Of a DNA stretch of 64,000 bases, positions 16,499 through 62,306 are shown in pieces. Under the pieces are notes generated by a model. That model was given only the letters and a program-made list of their open reading frames with translations, searched no databases and was not told the DNA's origin. Where the stretch lies: assembly GCF_000970025.1 (NCBI RefSeq), contig NZ_CP009528.1, positions 3,645,168-3,709,167 on the forward strand. Direction: 5' to 3'. Both the position numbers and the translations under genes were made by a program. The first letter of the stretch is position 1, and every line of letters starts with the position of its first letter. This stretch comes from Methanosarcina barkeri MS. Lineage in GTDB: Archaea; Halobacteriota; Methanosarcinia; Methanosarcinales; Methanosarcinaceae.

Positions 16499-16580
16499 AT
16501 CATATTTTCAAAAAATTAACAGAATAACTGGTAAACTGCCGCTGCAAACCTGAAAACCAAAGCAGAGGGGAGTGAAGGAA

Positions 16581-18137
16581 ATGAAGGAGAAAATTGGAAT
16601 AGTGGATACTCTCGAAGAAAGGAAGCCATATATTACCAGAAAACAAGAAAAAGGGCAGGAAATTCCTCTTGCCTGTGATAATAACTCTCTTGCAGGAGCT
16701 ATCAGCCAGCGAGCCTGTGTTTATTCGGGAGCCAGGGTTGTCTTAAACCCTGTAACCGATGCTGTTCACCTGGTCCACGGCCCAATCGGCTGTGCAGGCT
16801 ATACCTGGGACATAAGAGGTGCAAAGTCCAGCGGGATTGAAACAAACCGCACCAGCTTTAGCACGGATATGAAAGAGATCGATGTAGTCTTCGGAGGAGA
16901 GAAAAAGCTTTCAAATGCTATTGATGAACTGGTGGAGCTCTACCACCCTCCTGTTATTTTCGTTTATTCCACGTGCATAGTTGGAATCATTGGAGATGAT
17001 CTGGAGTCCGTGTGCAAGACTGCAAGCCAGAAACACAACATCCATGTAATTCCTGTAAAATCCGAAGGCTTCAAAGGCAATAAGTCCGACGGATACAAAG
17101 CTGCCTGTGACGCCTTAAAAAGGTTGATCAAAAGACCTTCCGAAGATGAAATTAAGAAGAAAGGCCCCAGAGTTCCTGAAACCATAAAGCCGAAGATTAA
17201 CATTTTAGGGGACTTTAACGTAGCCGGAGATGTCTGGCTCGTAAAGCCTCTCTTTGAGCAGATGGGAATTGAGGTTATAGTCTCAATGACAGGAGACTCA
17301 ACTGCAAAAGCCATATCAAGAGCAGCTGAAGCTGACCTTAACCTTGTCCAGTGCAGTGGGTCCATGACCTATCTTGCAAAGTGGATGCAAGCGGAATATG
17401 GAATTCCCTACTTAAACGCAAGTTTCTTCGGAATTGAAGATATCTCCTTAGCCTTGCGAAGAACTGCGGATTACTTTGGTTCCGAGGAGATAAAAAAGCG
17501 GGCAGAACAAATCCTGGAAACTGAAATAAACCGTATAATGCCTGAAATTTCCAGGGTCAGGGAAAAGGTCAAAGGAAAGAAGGCCGCCATTTACATGGGT
17601 GGACCTGCAAAAGCTCTCACGCTTATCAAAGGTTTTGACGAACTTGGTATGGAAGTCGTTATTATCGGAACCCAGACCGGGAAAAAAGAGGATTACGAGC
17701 AGATCAGTTATTCGGTCAGGGATGGGACGGTTATTGTTGACGATGCAAACCCCCTTGAACTTGCCGAACTGCTCATTAGACAGAAAGCTGACCTGATGGT
17801 TGCAGGCGTAAAGGAGAGATTTATTGCATACAAACTTGGAATTGCTTTCTGTGACTTCAACCACGACAGGGTGGTGGAGTTCGAAGGTTTTGATGGCTTT
17901 GTAAACTTTGCACGAGAAGTGGACGCTTCCATCAGCAGCCCTGTCTGGAAAGCTGTCAGACAGCGGATCCTGATACCCGAAATAGTGGGATCAGAACAGA
18001 AATTAGGTAAAATAGAGAAAGCAGCAGTAAAAGACATGACTTCTGGAGAAAATTACGCAAAAGAGTGTAAAGGCATACTCCTGAAACCTGAACTTTTGCA
18101 CCAGAAATCCGAGGCTGCAGTTGAGAGTCAGGTATGA
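16581..18137 (+). CDS. nifE: FeMo-cofactor scaffold protein NifE
   Basis: NifE with NifN forms the scaffold on which NifB-cofactor is matured into FeMo-cofactor. About 518 residues, NifD-like: RACVYSGARVVLNP, GPIGCAGYTWD and YSTCIVGIIGDDLESV correspond to the cluster-binding cysteines. The FeMo-co His ligand of NifD is replaced: the equivalent segment reads CDFNHDRVVEFEGF. The start is a choice between GTG at 16572 and ATG at 16581; GGAGTGA at 16569-16575 sits correctly only for the ATG. 82 bases separate it from nifK. Confidence 0.95.
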   Translation: MKEKIGIVDTLEERKPYITRKQEKGQEIPLACDNNSLAGAISQRACVYSGARVVLNPVTDAVHLVHGPIGCAGYTWDIRGAKSSGIETNRTSFSTDMKEIDVVFGGEKKLSNAIDELVELYHPPVIFVYSTCIVGIIGDDLESVCKTASQKHNIHVIPVKSEGFKGNKSDGYKAACDALKRLIKRPSEDEIKKKGPRVPETIKPKINILGDFNVAGDVWLVKPLFEQMGIEVIVSMTGDSTAKAISRAAEADLNLVQCSGSMTYLAKWMQAEYGIPYLNASFFGIEDISLALRRTADYFGSEEIKKRAEQILETEINRIMPEISRVREKVKGKKAAIYMGGPAKALTLIKGFDELGMEVVIIGTQTGKKEDYEQISYSVRDGTVIVDDANPLELAELLIRQKADLMVAGVKERFIAYKLGIAFCDFNHDRVVEFEGFDGFVNFAREVDASISSPVWKAVRQRILIPEIVGSEQKLGKIEKAAVKDMTSGENYAKECKGILLKPELLHQKSEAAVESQV

Positions 18138-18149
18138 GGAGGCATTGAG

Positions 18150-19583
18150 ATGACGAAAAGAAACTATGCAACTGTGAACCCCTGTGTTATGTGCCAGCCT
18201 ATGGGAAGTGCCCTTGCTTTCAAGGGAATTGAGAATACTATGGTTCTTTACCACGGTTCTCAGGGCTGCAGCACCTATATGCGTCTGCTTCTTGCCCACC
18301 ACTTCAGGGAACCTGTGGATATCGCATCAAGCTCGCTAAGTGAAAAAGGAGCAGTATACGGAGGCAGGGAAAACCTGAAAAAAGGATTGAGAAACGTGAT
18401 TAACAGGTACAATCCGAAAGTAATCGGAGTTGCTACGACCTGCCTTGCCGAAACAATTGGGGACGATGTACCTGCAATTATCCGTGAGTTTAAAGAAGAA
18501 CAAGAGATCGGAGACGACCCTGAAAAAGATATTATAATTATTCCGGTTTCAACTCCTAGCTATGGGGAAAGCCACGTAAGCGGATATATAAAAGCTTTAG
18601 ACGCAGTTGTCAGGAAATTTACGGAAAAAACTGAAGAAGAAAAAACCGTAAAAATTCCAAATGGAAAGCTTAACGTCATCCCTGTTGAAAGTCTATCCCC
18701 TGCTGATGTACGTGAACTCAAAGAGATCTTTGATGTTATGGCTGGAGATTATATTTTCCTGCCTGATATTTCCGAAACTTTTGACGCTCCGCTGAGAGAA
18801 GATCTCCCAAAAATTGCACCGGGTGGTACCCCACTTTCCGAAATTGCTGACATGCCAAACAGTCGAGCAAGCCTGGGCCTGGGTACGGTTAGTAAGAACT
18901 TAGCAGTTAAATATCTGGAAGAATCATATGGCGTGCACGGATACGATGTTCCAATCCCAATAGGGCTTTCAAATACTGACATTTTCTTCACTGAGCTGGT
19001 AAAGATTATTGGATGTCCCATACCTGAAAAATATCAGAAAGAAAGAGGTAGGCTCCTCGATGCTATGGTTGACGTGCACAAGTACCTGTACGGGGTAAAA
19101 GCCGCTGTTTATGGAGATCCTGATTTTGTATTTAGCCTCACAACCTTCATGCTGGAACTCGGGATAAACCCGGTTCTGATAGCTACAGGAAGTAAAAGCA
19201 GGGACTTTGAAACAAAAATCCGGCAAATAGTTGAAAAAACAAACCCGGAACTCGAACCTGTGGTTCTGAATGGAATTGACTTTGACACTTTTAACGATGC
19301 AGTCAGCCAATGTAATCCAGAAATCCTTATAGGAAATTCCAACGGGAGATACATTGCAAAATCCCGGAACATCCCTCTTGTAAGGGTCGGCCTACCAATA
19401 CATGACAGAGTCGGTGCACAGCGCATCCTTAATATAGGTTATAGAGGGGCTATGGAATTGCTGGACAGAATCACCAATACGATCCTGGAAGCTACCGATA
19501 CTTTCACTGCTCCAAGACAGGCAGAACCGGCAGCATATACCGAAAAGAGAAGCGAAGAAGAGTGTGTTGAAGGACTGCGATGA
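18150..19583 (+). CDS. nifN: FeMo-cofactor scaffold protein NifN
   Basis: Partner of NifE, 477 residues and NifK-like: NPCVMCQPMGSALAFKG, GSQGCSTYMRLLL and TTCLAETIGDDVPAI match NifK positions, while the C-terminal half keeps the FGDPDF-type nucleotide-fold strand (VYGDPDFVFSL). GAGGAGG stands just before ATG 18150, 12 bases after nifE. It is the last gene of the operon; no nifX-like gene follows in the next kilobase, and nifB lies 34 kb away. Confidence 0.95.
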   Translation: MTKRNYATVNPCVMCQPMGSALAFKGIENTMVLYHGSQGCSTYMRLLLAHHFREPVDIASSSLSEKGAVYGGRENLKKGLRNVINRYNPKVIGVATTCLAETIGDDVPAIIREFKEEQEIGDDPEKDIIIIPVSTPSYGESHVSGYIKALDAVVRKFTEKTEEEKTVKIPNGKLNVIPVESLSPADVRELKEIFDVMAGDYIFLPDISETFDAPLREDLPKIAPGGTPLSEIADMPNSRASLGLGTVSKNLAVKYLEESYGVHGYDVPIPIGLSNTDIFFTELVKIIGCPIPEKYQKERGRLLDAMVDVHKYLYGVKAAVYGDPDFVFSLTTFMLELGINPVLIATGSKSRDFETKIRQIVEKTNPELEPVVLNGIDFDTFNDAVSQCNPEILIGNSNGRYIAKSRNIPLVRVGLPIHDRVGAQRILNIGYRGAMELLDRITNTILEATDTFTAPRQAEPAAYTEKRSEEECVEGLR

Positions 19584-20548: not shown

Positions 20549-20710
20549 AACTTATAAGGAGTTAAGAAAGAGAAGTTTATGGAGTTTGAAAGTACTTGCC
20601 AGGGAACTCAAACCCCACAAAACATGCCCTATGAGGCAGTTATCATGTTTAGCTGTGCGAATATTTAAGCTTGCCTGATTCTGCCTCCTAGGGTAATAAG
20701 GAGGATAAAT
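20549..20710 (+). promoter_or_regulatory. Promoter and conserved, structured-looking 5' leader of the C39-like peptidase
   Basis: ACTTATAAGG at 20550-20559 looks like a TATA box, putting transcription start near 20577. The leader then offers three helices: P1, 20576-20588 with 20609-20621 (TTTATGGAGTTTG/CAAACCCCACAAA, two mismatches); P2, GAGGCAG 20633-20639 with CTGCCTC 20681-20687; and P3, CCTCCT 20684-20689 with AGGAGG 20699-20704, which is the ribosome-binding site. P2 and P3 compete for the same bases. The whole leader is conserved upstream of the decayed paralogue at 62141-62306, where P3 is kept through a G-U pair. Structure and switching are inferred. Confidence 0.5.
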
Positions 20711-21946
20711 ATGAAACGTAATAGAATTGGAATAAGTATACTTGTTTTGGTAATGCTGATTGGTATGGCGTTGATACCGGCCGCAGGTGCACAGAAAGAG
20801 GATAATTATTCTGTAACTGCTGAGGAAGCTTTTAAACATGCTAATGCAAACATGATAAGTTTTATAGCAGCTAATACACCAGGCTTTGAAAATTGGACAG
20901 GGGCGTCTATTAATCCCAAACCAATTGAGCTTTATGACATAAACGGTAAAAAATTATTTTATCAATTCTCAGTATATAAAGAAAATAAATTAACAGGTAC
21001 AATCGACGTTTGTGCCGATAAAACGTTGGGACCTTCTATCTACGATATTAAATTTGATCCTAAACCTTATAAATCGGCGGAAGTCATGAAAAAATCAATA
21101 GAAATAGCCAAAAGTGAGTATTCAGATGGAAAAATTAAATCAACCAATTTGGTTGTATACAGCTATCCGAGTATAGGTGCAATGACCATAGTAAAAGACA
21201 AGACTACTGGAGTTGAACATCGGATATTTGTAGATGCATACACCCTTGAAGAGGTCGAAGATAAACCAGCAACTGAAACCGAACCTGGAGTTTGGTCAAT
21301 GTATGACCAGATTTTGAAGTCTGGAAAGGAAAACAATTTAAAAGAATGGCAAAAAAGTGATGAACTTGCCAAATCTACAGAACAAGCAGCAACTAATAAA
21401 GGAGTTAATATTAATGCTGCAGTTACTGAAGAAAATATTAAAAAACTCAGTAGTGATGCAATAGTTCTAGGTTCATTTACAGGTAAAATACTTGATATTA
21501 ACGGTATTGGGCAAGAACGAGATGTTTTTTGTGGTCCAGCATGTATTCGAATGGTTTGTAAGTACTATAATAAACCGACCCCCATTCCTACGCAAGATCA
21601 AATTTATAGGGGTGATGGACTGTGGAGTTGGAATCCTGCTTCCATATACACGTCTGGGCTCTCAGCTGGTGATATTGTAAAATGGGCTACATATCGATGG
21701 GGGAAGACGGGAACTATAGCTACTAGCTTTTCTAATAGTGTCGCTATATCAGAAATTGAAAACAATAGACCATTCTTCAGTATGATTCCAGGTCATTTTC
21801 GACTTTGTAGAGGATATATAGCTCAAAATGGGTATACATATTTGCGTCTTAATGATCCACTGCCTGTTGGTTCGACATATGGTAATGCCGGATTACTTGA
21901 ACGCACATACGGCAGTTCAGAATCTACACGCATATATGTAAGGTAA
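20711..21946 (+). CDS. Secreted C39-like (papain-fold) cysteine peptidase
   Basis: A 411-residue exported protein. Residues 1-27 form a signal peptide (basic start, ISILVLVMLIGMALIPA, then AAGAQ). Residues 30-180 look like a prodomain (FSVYKENKLTGTIDV and similar strands), as in secreted cysteine peptidases with inhibitory propeptides. Residues 245-411 form a peptidase C39-like domain with the catalytic Cys in DVFCGPACIRMVC, His in MIPGHFRLCRGY and Asp/Asn in YLRLNDPLP. There is no ABC-transporter partner, so it is not a bacteriocin exporter. Substrate unknown. Broken relatives lie at 60075 and 61579. AAGGAGG precedes the ATG, but the leader can sequester it. Confidence 0.8.
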   Translation: MKRNRIGISILVLVMLIGMALIPAAGAQKEDNYSVTAEEAFKHANANMISFIAANTPGFENWTGASINPKPIELYDINGKKLFYQFSVYKENKLTGTIDVCADKTLGPSIYDIKFDPKPYKSAEVMKKSIEIAKSEYSDGKIKSTNLVVYSYPSIGAMTIVKDKTTGVEHRIFVDAYTLEEVEDKPATETEPGVWSMYDQILKSGKENNLKEWQKSDELAKSTEQAATNKGVNINAAVTEENIKKLSSDAIVLGSFTGKILDINGIGQERDVFCGPACIRMVCKYYNKPTPIPTQDQIYRGDGLWSWNPASIYTSGLSAGDIVKWATYRWGKTGTIATSFSNSVAISEIENNRPFFSMIPGHFRLCRGYIAQNGYTYLRLNDPLPVGSTYGNAGLLERTYGSSESTRIYVR

Positions 21947-22044: not shown

Positions 22045-22131
22045 TATTTATAGGGTATAGGTATAAACAAAATCCAGGAGAGAGTCGCTGATGTTGTTGC
22101 TTTTTAATGAGTCCATAAGTTGGGATTTAAA

Positions 22132-23568
22132 ATGGAAGAAATAACATATGATAAAATATATCGAGAGCATACTCTCCTAAAAATTTTTGGAATAGCTTCA
22201 CTTACGATTTTAATATTGGCTGGTGTAGCATGTACGGCTCCATTTGCATATGTGACAAATATGGGGGATTATAATCTGAGAGGTTATTATTACGATACGA
22301 ATTATAATGGTACTCTCCCGACTCCTAATGTCGCTGTAATTGACACAGCAACTAACAATGTTACAGCCAGAGTGCCTCTCGGCGATGGGTGGCCTGTAGG
22401 AGTTGCAGTCAGCCCTGCAGGAACAAAGGTATATGTGGTGGACTCACCTATGGACGTCTCCAATGTTTATGTAATTGACACGGCCACAAATATGGTTAGT
22501 GCCAAAGTGAATATCGGAAGTAGCTATCCTTCGGAAATTACAGTTAACCCTGCAGGAACAAGAATTTATGTGACGAAACAGCATGATTACACCGATATCT
22601 CTGTAATTAACACAGCGACAAACACCTTAATGGCACCGATTATTGTGGGGCCGAGTACTTACAATGTTGCATTTACACCGGATGGAAAAAAAATCTATGC
22701 TGTAAACAGTCGAAACAACACTATTTATGTAATTGATGCGGCTACAAACAAAGTTACAGCCAATGTATCTGTAGGAGACAGTCCTTATGAAGTTCTAGTC
22801 ACACCGGACGGAAAAAAGGTATACGTATCTAACTATAACAGCAGCACTGTGTCTGTAATTGACACAGCCACGGATAATGTTACAGCGACAGTGCCTGTAG
22901 GAGACTCGCCTCATCGTGTTGCAGCTACTTCTGATGGAAATAAAGTATATGTAGCTAACAACAATACTGTCTCTGTAATTGATACAGCCACGGATACTGT
23001 AATAGCCACCGTGCCTGTAGGAACTTTTTCTCGTGAAATTGTAATCAGTCCAGATGGAAGTAAGGTATATTTAGGAAACTTTTACAATAAAAGTGTCACT
23101 GTAATTAATACAAAAACAAACACCGTTACAGCCAGAGTGCCTGTAGGAGAATGGCCCATGGGAATTGCAGTCACACCGGACGGAAAAAAGGTATATGTGG
23201 CAAACGCTGACAGCGACAATGTCTCTGTAATTGACACAACCACAAATAACGTTACGGCTACTGTGAATGCAGGAATCTATCCTACCGGAGTTGTAATTGT
23301 TCCTTTTATGGATTCTAATATGACTGCACAAAGCACAGGGGCAACCTCCAATACAACTGAAGGTATAGGAGTTGAAGAACCTAACTTATCATCACCTGAA
23401 GAAAAAAAAGCCGTAAAATTCAGTGGTTCAAACAATAATAGTTTTGAGTCTGATAACGGTAATAGCCCAAGTGAAAATGACTCGAGCAAAGATAACTCTA
23501 CTCCAGGCTTTAGTTTATTGGGAGGCTTGATCTGTCTTTATGGAATGTGGAAGTTCAGGAAGAAGTAA
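22132..23568 (+). CDS. YVTN beta-propeller surface protein with PGF-CTERM sorting signal
   Basis: About 478 residues. A hydrophobic export segment near residues 20-37 is followed by about eight YVTN-family blades of roughly 42 residues, each with VSVIDTATDNVTATVPVG and a TPDGKKVYVAN-type strand. A Ser/Asn-rich linker (NNNSFESDNGNSPSENDSS) leads to TPGFSLLGGLICLYGMWKF and a basic end. That tripartite tail (PGF, hydrophobic helix, Lys/Arg) is the PGF-CTERM signal recognised by archaeosortase A, so the protein is probably processed and lipid-anchored at the cell surface. ATG 22132 is preferred over an in-frame TTG at 22120; no strong ribosome-binding site is seen. Confidence 0.85.
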   Translation: MEEITYDKIYREHTLLKIFGIASLTILILAGVACTAPFAYVTNMGDYNLRGYYYDTNYNGTLPTPNVAVIDTATNNVTARVPLGDGWPVGVAVSPAGTKVYVVDSPMDVSNVYVIDTATNMVSAKVNIGSSYPSEITVNPAGTRIYVTKQHDYTDISVINTATNTLMAPIIVGPSTYNVAFTPDGKKIYAVNSRNNTIYVIDAATNKVTANVSVGDSPYEVLVTPDGKKVYVSNYNSSTVSVIDTATDNVTATVPVGDSPHRVAATSDGNKVYVANNNTVSVIDTATDTVIATVPVGTFSREIVISPDGSKVYLGNFYNKSVTVINTKTNTVTARVPVGEWPMGIAVTPDGKKVYVANADSDNVSVIDTTTNNVTATVNAGIYPTGVVIVPFMDSNMTAQSTGATSNTTEGIGVEEPNLSSPEEKKAVKFSGSNNNSFESDNGNSPSENDSSKDNSTPGFSLLGGLICLYGMWKFRKK

Positions 23569-61588: not shown

Positions 61589-62140
61589 ACATATATACGT
61601 TCAATTTCAGAACCGAATGCCTCCCAATAAGGTACACAGAAATATATGGGATTAGGATTACCTATACGCAAATATTCATTCGAACCACTTATTTTGTATC
61701 CACGACACATTCGAACATGACCTGGAACTCCACTCGCGAATTTAGCGATTTCTCTTGATTTATTCATAGCTGTAGTGGCATCAAAAGGTTTTGGCTCAAA
61801 TAAAACAAGTTGGACTGTTTGCCCAAGCCTTTTATCTGCAGCAATGTCGATTATACCTATCAGGGTTTTATTTTTATATACAGAAAATTGATAATACAAC
61901 TTTTGACCAGTTGGATCGTAGAGCTCCAGTGGTTTGGAATCAATAGATGCTCCTGTCCAGTTTTCAAATCCTGATGTGTTAGTTGCGATAAAGTCTATCA
62001 TATTTGCATTAGCATGCTTAAAGGCTTCCTCAGCAGTTACAGAGTAATTATCCTCTGTCTGTGCACTTACCTGGTATCAATGCAATACCAACCAACATTG
62101 TCAAAAGAAGTATGCTTATCTTAATTTTGTTCTTAACCAT
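61579..62140 (-). pseudogene. Decayed C39-like peptidase gene
   Basis: From ATG 62140 the signal peptide MVKNKIKISILLLTMLVGIALIP is readable, then a small indel (CCAGGTAAGTGCACAG versus CCGGCCGCAGGTGCACAG in the intact gene) shifts the frame. The prodomain resumes from about 62040 (ANMIDFIATNTSGFENWTGA) to KSREIAKFAS, where an internal deletion of roughly 200 codons joins it to GVPGHVRMCRGYKI and the C-terminal RIYVRS. The catalytic Cys region is lost while the His motif remains. A shortened 140-residue ORF persists from 62001. Confidence 0.85.
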
Positions 62141-62306
62141 ATTTTTCCTCCTGTTTAGCACCCAAGAGGTAGAATCAGACAAGCTTAAATACACGCAAAG
62201 CTAACATGATCACTGCCTCTTAGAGCGTATTTTATGGAGTTTGGGTGATAGCTGGAAAATACTTTTAAACTCCATAAATTCCTCTTACTTACTTCTTTAT
62301 AAGTTT
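62141..62306 (-). promoter_or_regulatory. Conserved leader of the decayed C39-like gene
   Basis: Homologous to 20548-20710 over its whole length. Shared parts: ACTTATAAAG TATA box, TTTATGGAGTTT/AAACTCCATAAA hairpin (perfect here), GAGGCAGTGATCATG, GTATTTAAGCTTG.CTGATTCT, and the CCTCTT segment that can pair with the AGGAGG ribosome-binding site at 62147-62152. Confidence 0.55.

Follow-up and report, generated by a model that had tools for sequence, protein, structure and literature searches.

The stretch of DNA considered here (64,000 nucleotides of Methanosarcina barkeri MS, which we call the window) carries a gene for a secreted protein that ends in a C39-like peptidase domain, and between the promoter and the start codon of this gene lies the leader that is our subject (Table 1). 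Upstream stand two nitrogenase-like genes (16572-19583, by eye); downstream comes the gene for a beta-propeller-like repeat protein (22120-23568). None of them shows any obvious connection to the peptidase. Several relatives elsewhere (at places like G000:C2:2726765-2727520) match the window protein over its first ~250 residues and then continue into long, differing C-terminal parts. A second leader of the same kind precedes a decayed paralogue, whose reading frame is broken past the signal peptide.

Table 1. Parts of the leader, its promoters and its gene, with the second copy in the window and the MM2442 leader of M. mazei for comparison
Feature	Position	Strand	Basis or remark
TATA box CTTATAAG of sense promoter	20551-20558	+	AAAACTTATAAGGAG kept upstream of P1 across the genus
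Putative transcription start	20580-20582	+	25 nt downstream of TATA center
P1 5' arm TGGAGTTTGA	20580-20589	+	Covariation on tree
P1 3' arm TCAAACCCCA	20608-20617	+	One internal A-C mismatch; covariation on tree
Segment 1, outer 5' strand of P2, TGCCCTA	20625-20631	+	Covariation, fold; alternative partner segment 2
Segment 2, inner 5' strand of P2, GAGGCAG	20633-20639	+	Covariation; RBS-like sequence
P2a 5' strand ATCA	20642-20645	+	Covariation on tree
P2b 5' strand AGCT	20651-20654	+	Covariation outside the genus
P2b terminal loop GTGCGAATATTTA, in conserved core	20655-20667	+	TA.TTA columns conserved family-wide
P2b 3' strand AGCT	20668-20671	+	Covariation outside the genus
P2a 3' strand TGAT	20676-20679	+	Covariation on tree
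Segment 3, inner 3' strand of P2, CTGCCTC	20681-20687	+	Pairing with GAGGCAG, covariation
Anti-RBS segment CCTCCT	20684-20689	+	Resembles 16S rRNA 3' end
Outer 3' strand of P2, TAGGGTA	20689-20695	+	Covariation, fold; mostly doubles as P3 loop
Ribosome-binding site AGGAGG (segment 4)	20699-20704	+	6 nt before ATG 20711
Secreted 411-aa protein, C-terminal C39-like peptidase domain	20711-21946	+	Peptidase_C39_2 E 4e-11; signal peptide by eye
Candidate antisense TATA box CTTAAATA	20662-20669	-	Reverse complement of core; YTTAWA frequency; sRNA162 start position
Candidate antisense transcription start	20636-20640	-	Homologous to mapped 5' end of sRNA162
Second leader, before decayed paralogue	62138-62279	-	145 bits with covariance model R1
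MM2442 leader			P1 GCAGGATTCAG/CTGAATCCTGC, segment 2 AAAGGCA, segment 3 TTGCCTC, RBS AAGAGGTGG, TTG start

How would such a leader be built? Comparison among its copies shows a 5' hairpin (P1) followed by a long irregular hairpin (P2, P2a and P2b), and the 3' strand of P2 includes a segment that copies the 16S anti-Shine-Dalgarno sequence, right before the ribosome-binding site (RBS). An initial annotation of this DNA had proposed that this segment pairs either with GAGGCAG or, as helix P3, with the RBS. Its positions (GAGGCAG at 20633-20639, CTGCCTC at 20681-20687, CCTCCT at 20684-20689, AGGAGG at 20699-20704 and ATG at 20711) are all correct, as is its account of the paralogue, where CCTCTT faces AGGAGG (62147-62152) with one G-U pair and P1 is a perfect helix of 12 bp. 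The GAGGCAG pairing is real, and yet it was only the inner half of P2: TGCCCTA (20625-20631) pairs with TAGGGTA (20689-20695) and extends GAGGCAG/CTGCCTC to about twice the earlier length, giving 14 pairs around a 1x1 loop in the window leader. That leader folds at -41.2 kcal/mol and beats 200 of 200 dinucleotide shuffles (z -3.1); for the paralogue's leader the comparison gives z -2.2 and 4/200. A TATA-like element stands upstream of P1 in 86 of the 107 leaders of the genus, at -23 from P1 in 45 of these and at -22 in 31. The annotation had also supposed a transcript that begins upstream of 20640, and the one start mapped in the family (by RACE, MM2442 of M. mazei; PMC3510493) lies immediately 5' of P1, at the same distance from its TATA box as the start that we predict in the window.

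Do these helices exist as RNA, or only on paper? An all-pairs G statistic with a tree null was clear only for P1 9-42 (E = 0), with P3 112-123 at E = 0.055, and was otherwise swamped by the difference between leaders of the genus and all others; we therefore counted, on a tree of 184 leaders less than 93% identical, the branches on which both partners of a pair change and the pair is kept, and we compared these counts with simulations on the same tree that preserve the rate and composition of each column. P1 has 34 such double changes where 5.6 are expected (0/500 simulations) and outer P2, which is usually present in family members, has 14 against 4.9 (0/500). The counts are 10 against 3.0 for P2a (2/500), 6 against 1.7 for the P2 core (5/500) and 5 against 1.8 for P2b (16/500), which outside the genus has 7 against 1.4 (0/400). 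In genera left out of model building, 87.9% of the paired cells are paired and the covariation score is 0.339, from an alignment that had been fitted to the structure; slid versions score at most 0.110, and 0 of 500 shuffles reach the score. Because the helices covary beyond the tree null, we regard the frame of P1, P2, P2a and P2b as established, on comparative sequence evidence, to be structured RNA. The annotation had asked for covariation in ten or more leaders; P1 and P2 show it in 184, and P3 we take up below.

Within this covarying frame, the loop and joining columns of the P2a/P2b core are strongly conserved and mostly do not covary. Segments 2 and 3 are nearly invariant (GAGGCA or AAGGCA, facing TGCCTC) and complementary to the RBS; P1, by contrast, drifts freely. 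Some leaders (L019, L024, L037 and L263) carry an insertion, AAGGCTTAGCTTGCC, that duplicates the 3' strand of P2b.

The leader is far from confined to this window. A DNA search turned up nine or more good copies in the M. barkeri MS genome and copies in 25 of the 31 genomes of the genus, which disposes of an ancestry shared by just the two window copies as an explanation. A covariance model (R1, built from 40 leaders) has 22 matches in the same genome with an E of 0.1 or less; it is positive in 27 of the 31 genomes of the genus, with as many as 28 matches in a single genome, and in 82 of 186 genomes (17 of 27 genera) of the order Methanosarcinales. Of 393 genomes sampled from the phylum, 36 are positive and every one belongs to the order, with no match outside it, and the viral contigs that we searched gave none. 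Named records with the core belong to Methanosarcina, Methanolobus, Methanohalophilus, Methanosarcinaceae archaeon HMMV ANME3, Candidatus Methanoperedens and a bin labelled Methanomicrobiaceae; among the records then tested with the model, every group was confirmed except the ANME-3 record, which it did not match. Pattern matches in Oscillospiraceae and Pseudoalteromonas did not match the model either and were rejected. Bins of candidate division WOR-3 and of Cloacimonadota do contain true leaders (L311 and L317; 77 bits in the Cloacimonadota bin, 55 in the WOR-3 bin), on contigs that are probably archaeal and misbinned.

What do all these leaders precede? We gathered 227 distinct leaders, of which 167 have an open frame of usable length at the expected distance, and 163 of these 167 intact genes begin with a signal-peptide-like N-terminus (a charged start plus a hydrophobic stretch, called by hydropathy only). 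Applied to the genes of the window, this crude rule gives 6 positives in 47; for flanking frames, a rule made slightly stricter gives 114 in 412. Among the four exceptions, one is still signal-peptide-like and one, within a known family, has probably lost its signal peptide by deletion. Many of the other 60 leaders stand before decayed or truncated genes that still show a signal peptide. The leader keeps a consistent place, after the promoter and ahead of the start codon of a coding gene. The downstream proteins form 39 BLAST clusters, mostly unrelated (not all, since C39-like domains occur in more than one), and include C39-like peptidases, matrixin and reprolysin-type metallopeptidases, a transglutaminase-like protein, DUF6345 and many proteins without any Pfam match. 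To call this the leader of a secreted cysteine peptidase, as the annotation had, is right for the window gene and too narrow for the family, which serves dozens of mostly unrelated secreted proteins.

Two observations concern the history of these genes. Otherwise unrelated signal peptides share an end like ...LLVSMAFVPAVSA (17 of 39 clusters against 14 of 114 background frames; e.g., L138, L240 and L290), as if leader and signal peptide had travelled together like a cassette. A large share of copies (e.g., L197, L198, L203, L224 and L256) precede decayed genes, which suggests fast birth and death of these secreted proteins.

None of the 4227 families of Rfam 15 exceeds its gathering score on the leader strand, and a literature search for an earlier description of the leader family found only the work on sRNA162. 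The annotation's remark that no such RNA element had been described therefore stands for the family, with the reservation that the 5'UTR of one member, MM2442, has been studied as a target of sRNA162. As far as comparison among genomes can show it, the leader is a new, order-wide, covarying RNA tied to exported proteins.

We come now to the more interesting part of the original claim, that the RBS can be hidden. The competing use of the anti-RBS segment, in P2 or in P3, is possible in nearly all members, and the commonest P3 stems have 6 bp in the genus and 8 bp in other leaders. The full P2 consumes the whole anti-RBS segment, and competition with P3 is therefore more complete than first described; the mutual exclusion is nonetheless not absolute, since in RNAalifold a shortened P2 (GGCAG/CTGCC) could coexist with P3. 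P3 itself is harder to support. Its core cells are 93-95% paired, yet hardly variable, and among the 184 leaders we found no covariation beyond the tree null (10 double changes where 5.3 are expected, 31/500); a slid control does as well as P3 itself (20/500). The P3 flanks do match better within a leader than between leaders, and permuting left and right halves among leaders favors the matched flanks (4/5000 in the genus, 0/5000 outside it) in a test that ignores descent. The complementarity could also simply follow from the conservation of P2 plus the presence of an RBS.

What, then, would the RNA do by default? In partition functions (in silico, at 37 C, ignoring proteins and co-transcriptional folding), segment 3 sits in P2 with a median probability near 0.95, and the predicted ground state of the window leader has an open RBS, with no base of it paired at a probability above 0.05. 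The RBS is freer in real than in shuffled leaders (0.47 vs 0.71 and 0.35 vs 0.59 paired). About one-fifth of the copies are predicted to be closed by default. With most copies predicted open, hiding the RBS would need a trigger. When P1 through the GGC of segment 2 (20580-20638 in the window) is made unavailable, in a simulation that partly presupposes its result, the median probability that segment 3 hides the RBS rises from 0.03 to 0.80 in the genus and from 0.01 to 0.82 outside it, and in the window copy the pairing of the RBS with segment 3, at 0.00 before, reaches 0.94-0.95 for five RBS bases and 0.79 for the first of the six. Blocking P1 alone hardly alters the hiding of the RBS by segment 3.

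A natural agent that covers just this side of the leader exists for one member. The minus strand of several leaders matches sRNA162 (RF02792) weakly, the window copy at 20.5 bits against a cut-off of 78, whereas loci of the MM2442 type reach 78-215 bits, likewise on the opposite strand; the cut-off is exceeded in 16 of the 31 genomes, and in each of these few copies get there. The genome with the two top matches, and a winged-helix regulator gene nearby, is evidently that of M. mazei, a species with 26 copies of the leader. MM2442 has a 5'UTR that belongs to the family as a divergent member (a modest 27 bits, E 0.0006): its P1, P2, anti-RBS segment and RBS, and the secreted protein too, can be recognized by eye, and the leader is predicted to fold closed by default, blocked or not, with segment 1 on segment 2 and segment 3 on the RBS. 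The RACE-mapped start of MM2442 puts the antisense overlap at 65 nt; gel shift and footprint show binding of the leader by the 5' 65 nt of sRNA162; and sRNA162/MM2442 and the duplicate sRNA171 have been mapped and shown to cross-bind in trans (PMC3510493). Compared with the segments of the leader, the first nucleotide of sRNA162 faces the GGC of segment 2, and its 5' end covers exactly P1 and the 5' strand of P2 (segments 1 and 2). The authors of that study saw no RBS before the annotated start and left the regulatory outcome open (PMC3510493). On our reading, they found none because the annotated start lies inside the signal peptide: in the M. mazei-like L341 (1425-649, minus strand), an upstream TTG gives a good RBS and a full signal peptide, and this TTG is probably the true start of MM2442.

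Might other copies be read from both strands as well? A YTTAWA box is rightly placed on the antisense strand in 93 of the 107 genus leaders (3.4 expected from shuffling) and in 38 of 77 outside the genus, so antisense starts may be common among the leaders. In Methanolobus psychrophilus, nine conserved cold-induced sRNAs are reported to share an upstream "cold box" (PMC5378194).

Putting these pieces together, we think it somewhat probable that the leader is a two-state translational control element of the secretome of Methanosarcinales. In the open state, the predicted default of most copies, segments 1 and 2 would pair with segment 3 in the full P2, the RBS would be free, and the protein would be made. 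In the closed state, segment 3 would be released, or segments 1 and 2 would pair with each other, and segment 3 would then pair with the RBS (P3) and turn translation off. As to the trigger, at least for copies of the MM2442 type an sRNA162 made from opposite segment 2 through P1 could hold the closed state; for the other copies, a ligand or protein on the conserved P2a/P2b core would be equally possible. P1 would probably also shield the 5' end of the mRNA. A bolder version, to which we give little credence, would have RNA control dedicated to the order's secretome, with two-state RBS switches flipped by antisense RNAs from their own opposite strands, possibly cross-acting, and sRNA162 as the first case.

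There are other ways to read the same data. The P2a/P2b core might bind a small molecule (e.g., a second messenger or an envelope or nutrient signal) that chooses between P2 and P3, as would fit the conserved, mostly non-covarying core columns in a covarying frame, the many copies per genome before genes of loosely related function and the alternative pairing with the RBS, so like an expression platform; but the leader strand has no Rfam match, the targets point to no single metabolite, and the core is also accounted for by P2b pairing plus an antisense TATA box, and we hold such a riboswitch to be possible, if on the unlikely side. Or every copy might have a divergent promoter and a short RNA that starts at segment 2, pairs with segments 1 and 2 and P1, and forces the RBS into P3. 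The mapped and cross-binding M. mazei RNAs, the frequency of YTTAWA in the genus and the RF02792 matches all speak for this; the few copies per genome that reach the Rfam cut-off, the rarer box outside the genus, the outcome on MM2442 that its discoverers left open and the chance that YTTAWA is a by-product of P2b all tell against it, and for all copies together we find it doubtful.

The plainest reading is that P1 and P2 are a constitutive 5' structure that stabilizes the mRNA and keeps the RBS open, with P3 incidental. An RBS more open than in shuffles and a P3 without covariation on the tree are what it would lead one to expect, but it leaves the near invariance of segments 2 and 3, complementary to the RBS while P1 drifts, and the better match of P3 flanks within leaders to be explained, and we judge it improbable to about the same degree as antisense control of every copy. 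Less probable again is a leader bound by a protein (e.g., a secretion- or ribosome-linked RNA-binding protein, or one of a cold or heat response) that represses or localizes the mRNAs of secreted proteins; what recommends it is that the common denominator of the targets is export and no shared pathway. Finally, a duplicated promoter and signal peptide cassette without RNA function would suit the many recent duplicates, often with decayed genes, and it is scarcely credible given pair-keeping double changes far above the tree null, across genera; for P1, P2 and P2a, covariation refutes it. Returning to the two-state leader, the claim that a helix hides the RBS survives as a pairing open to nearly all members, with a P3 that does not covary on the tree and a default predicted to be open.

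What would follow? To our knowledge, natural cis-regulatory RNA classes are few in archaea, and our literature search found no archaeal class that covers a function as broad as the secretome. The relatives of the leader number in the hundreds, stand almost only before genes for secreted proteins and span an order of methane-metabolizing archaea. If the switch is real, it would show how methanogens coordinate the production of exported enzymes, it would explain the effect of sRNA162 on MM2442, and, with copies sitting in genetically tractable Methanosarcina, it would come with a ready test system. Even without a switch, several hundred copies of a covarying RNA that Rfam lacks make a family that merits inclusion.

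How does the leader compare with systems already described? In clostridia, c-di-GMP riboswitch regulons likewise set a single type of leader, in many copies, ahead of genes for surface and secreted proteins; these belong to another domain of life, and Rfam scans gave no match to them in sequence or structure. RNA thermometers also hold an RBS in a hairpin that could open, but our leader is predicted to leave its RBS free at 37 C, and it has a long, conserved competing helix; in M. mazei only a designed thermometer has been reported (PMC11549558). The closest relative is the sRNA162/sRNA171 and MM2442 pair (RF02792, PMC3510493), in which MM2442 is itself a family member and the 5' end of sRNA162 is antisense to segments 2 and 1 and P1; the published work covers one antisense RNA and its targets, not a leader family, a link to the secretome or a switch, and RF02792 models the strand opposite to the leader. 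Translational riboswitches with an anti-Shine-Dalgarno platform resemble the proposed switch, in which one segment would pair either with a strand upstream of it or with the RBS; our leader differs in having no Rfam match and in targets united by export instead of a metabolite. In its four segments (1 with 2 and 3 with 4, or 1 and 2 together with 3), the proposed logic would be that of the classical attenuator, acting on translation.
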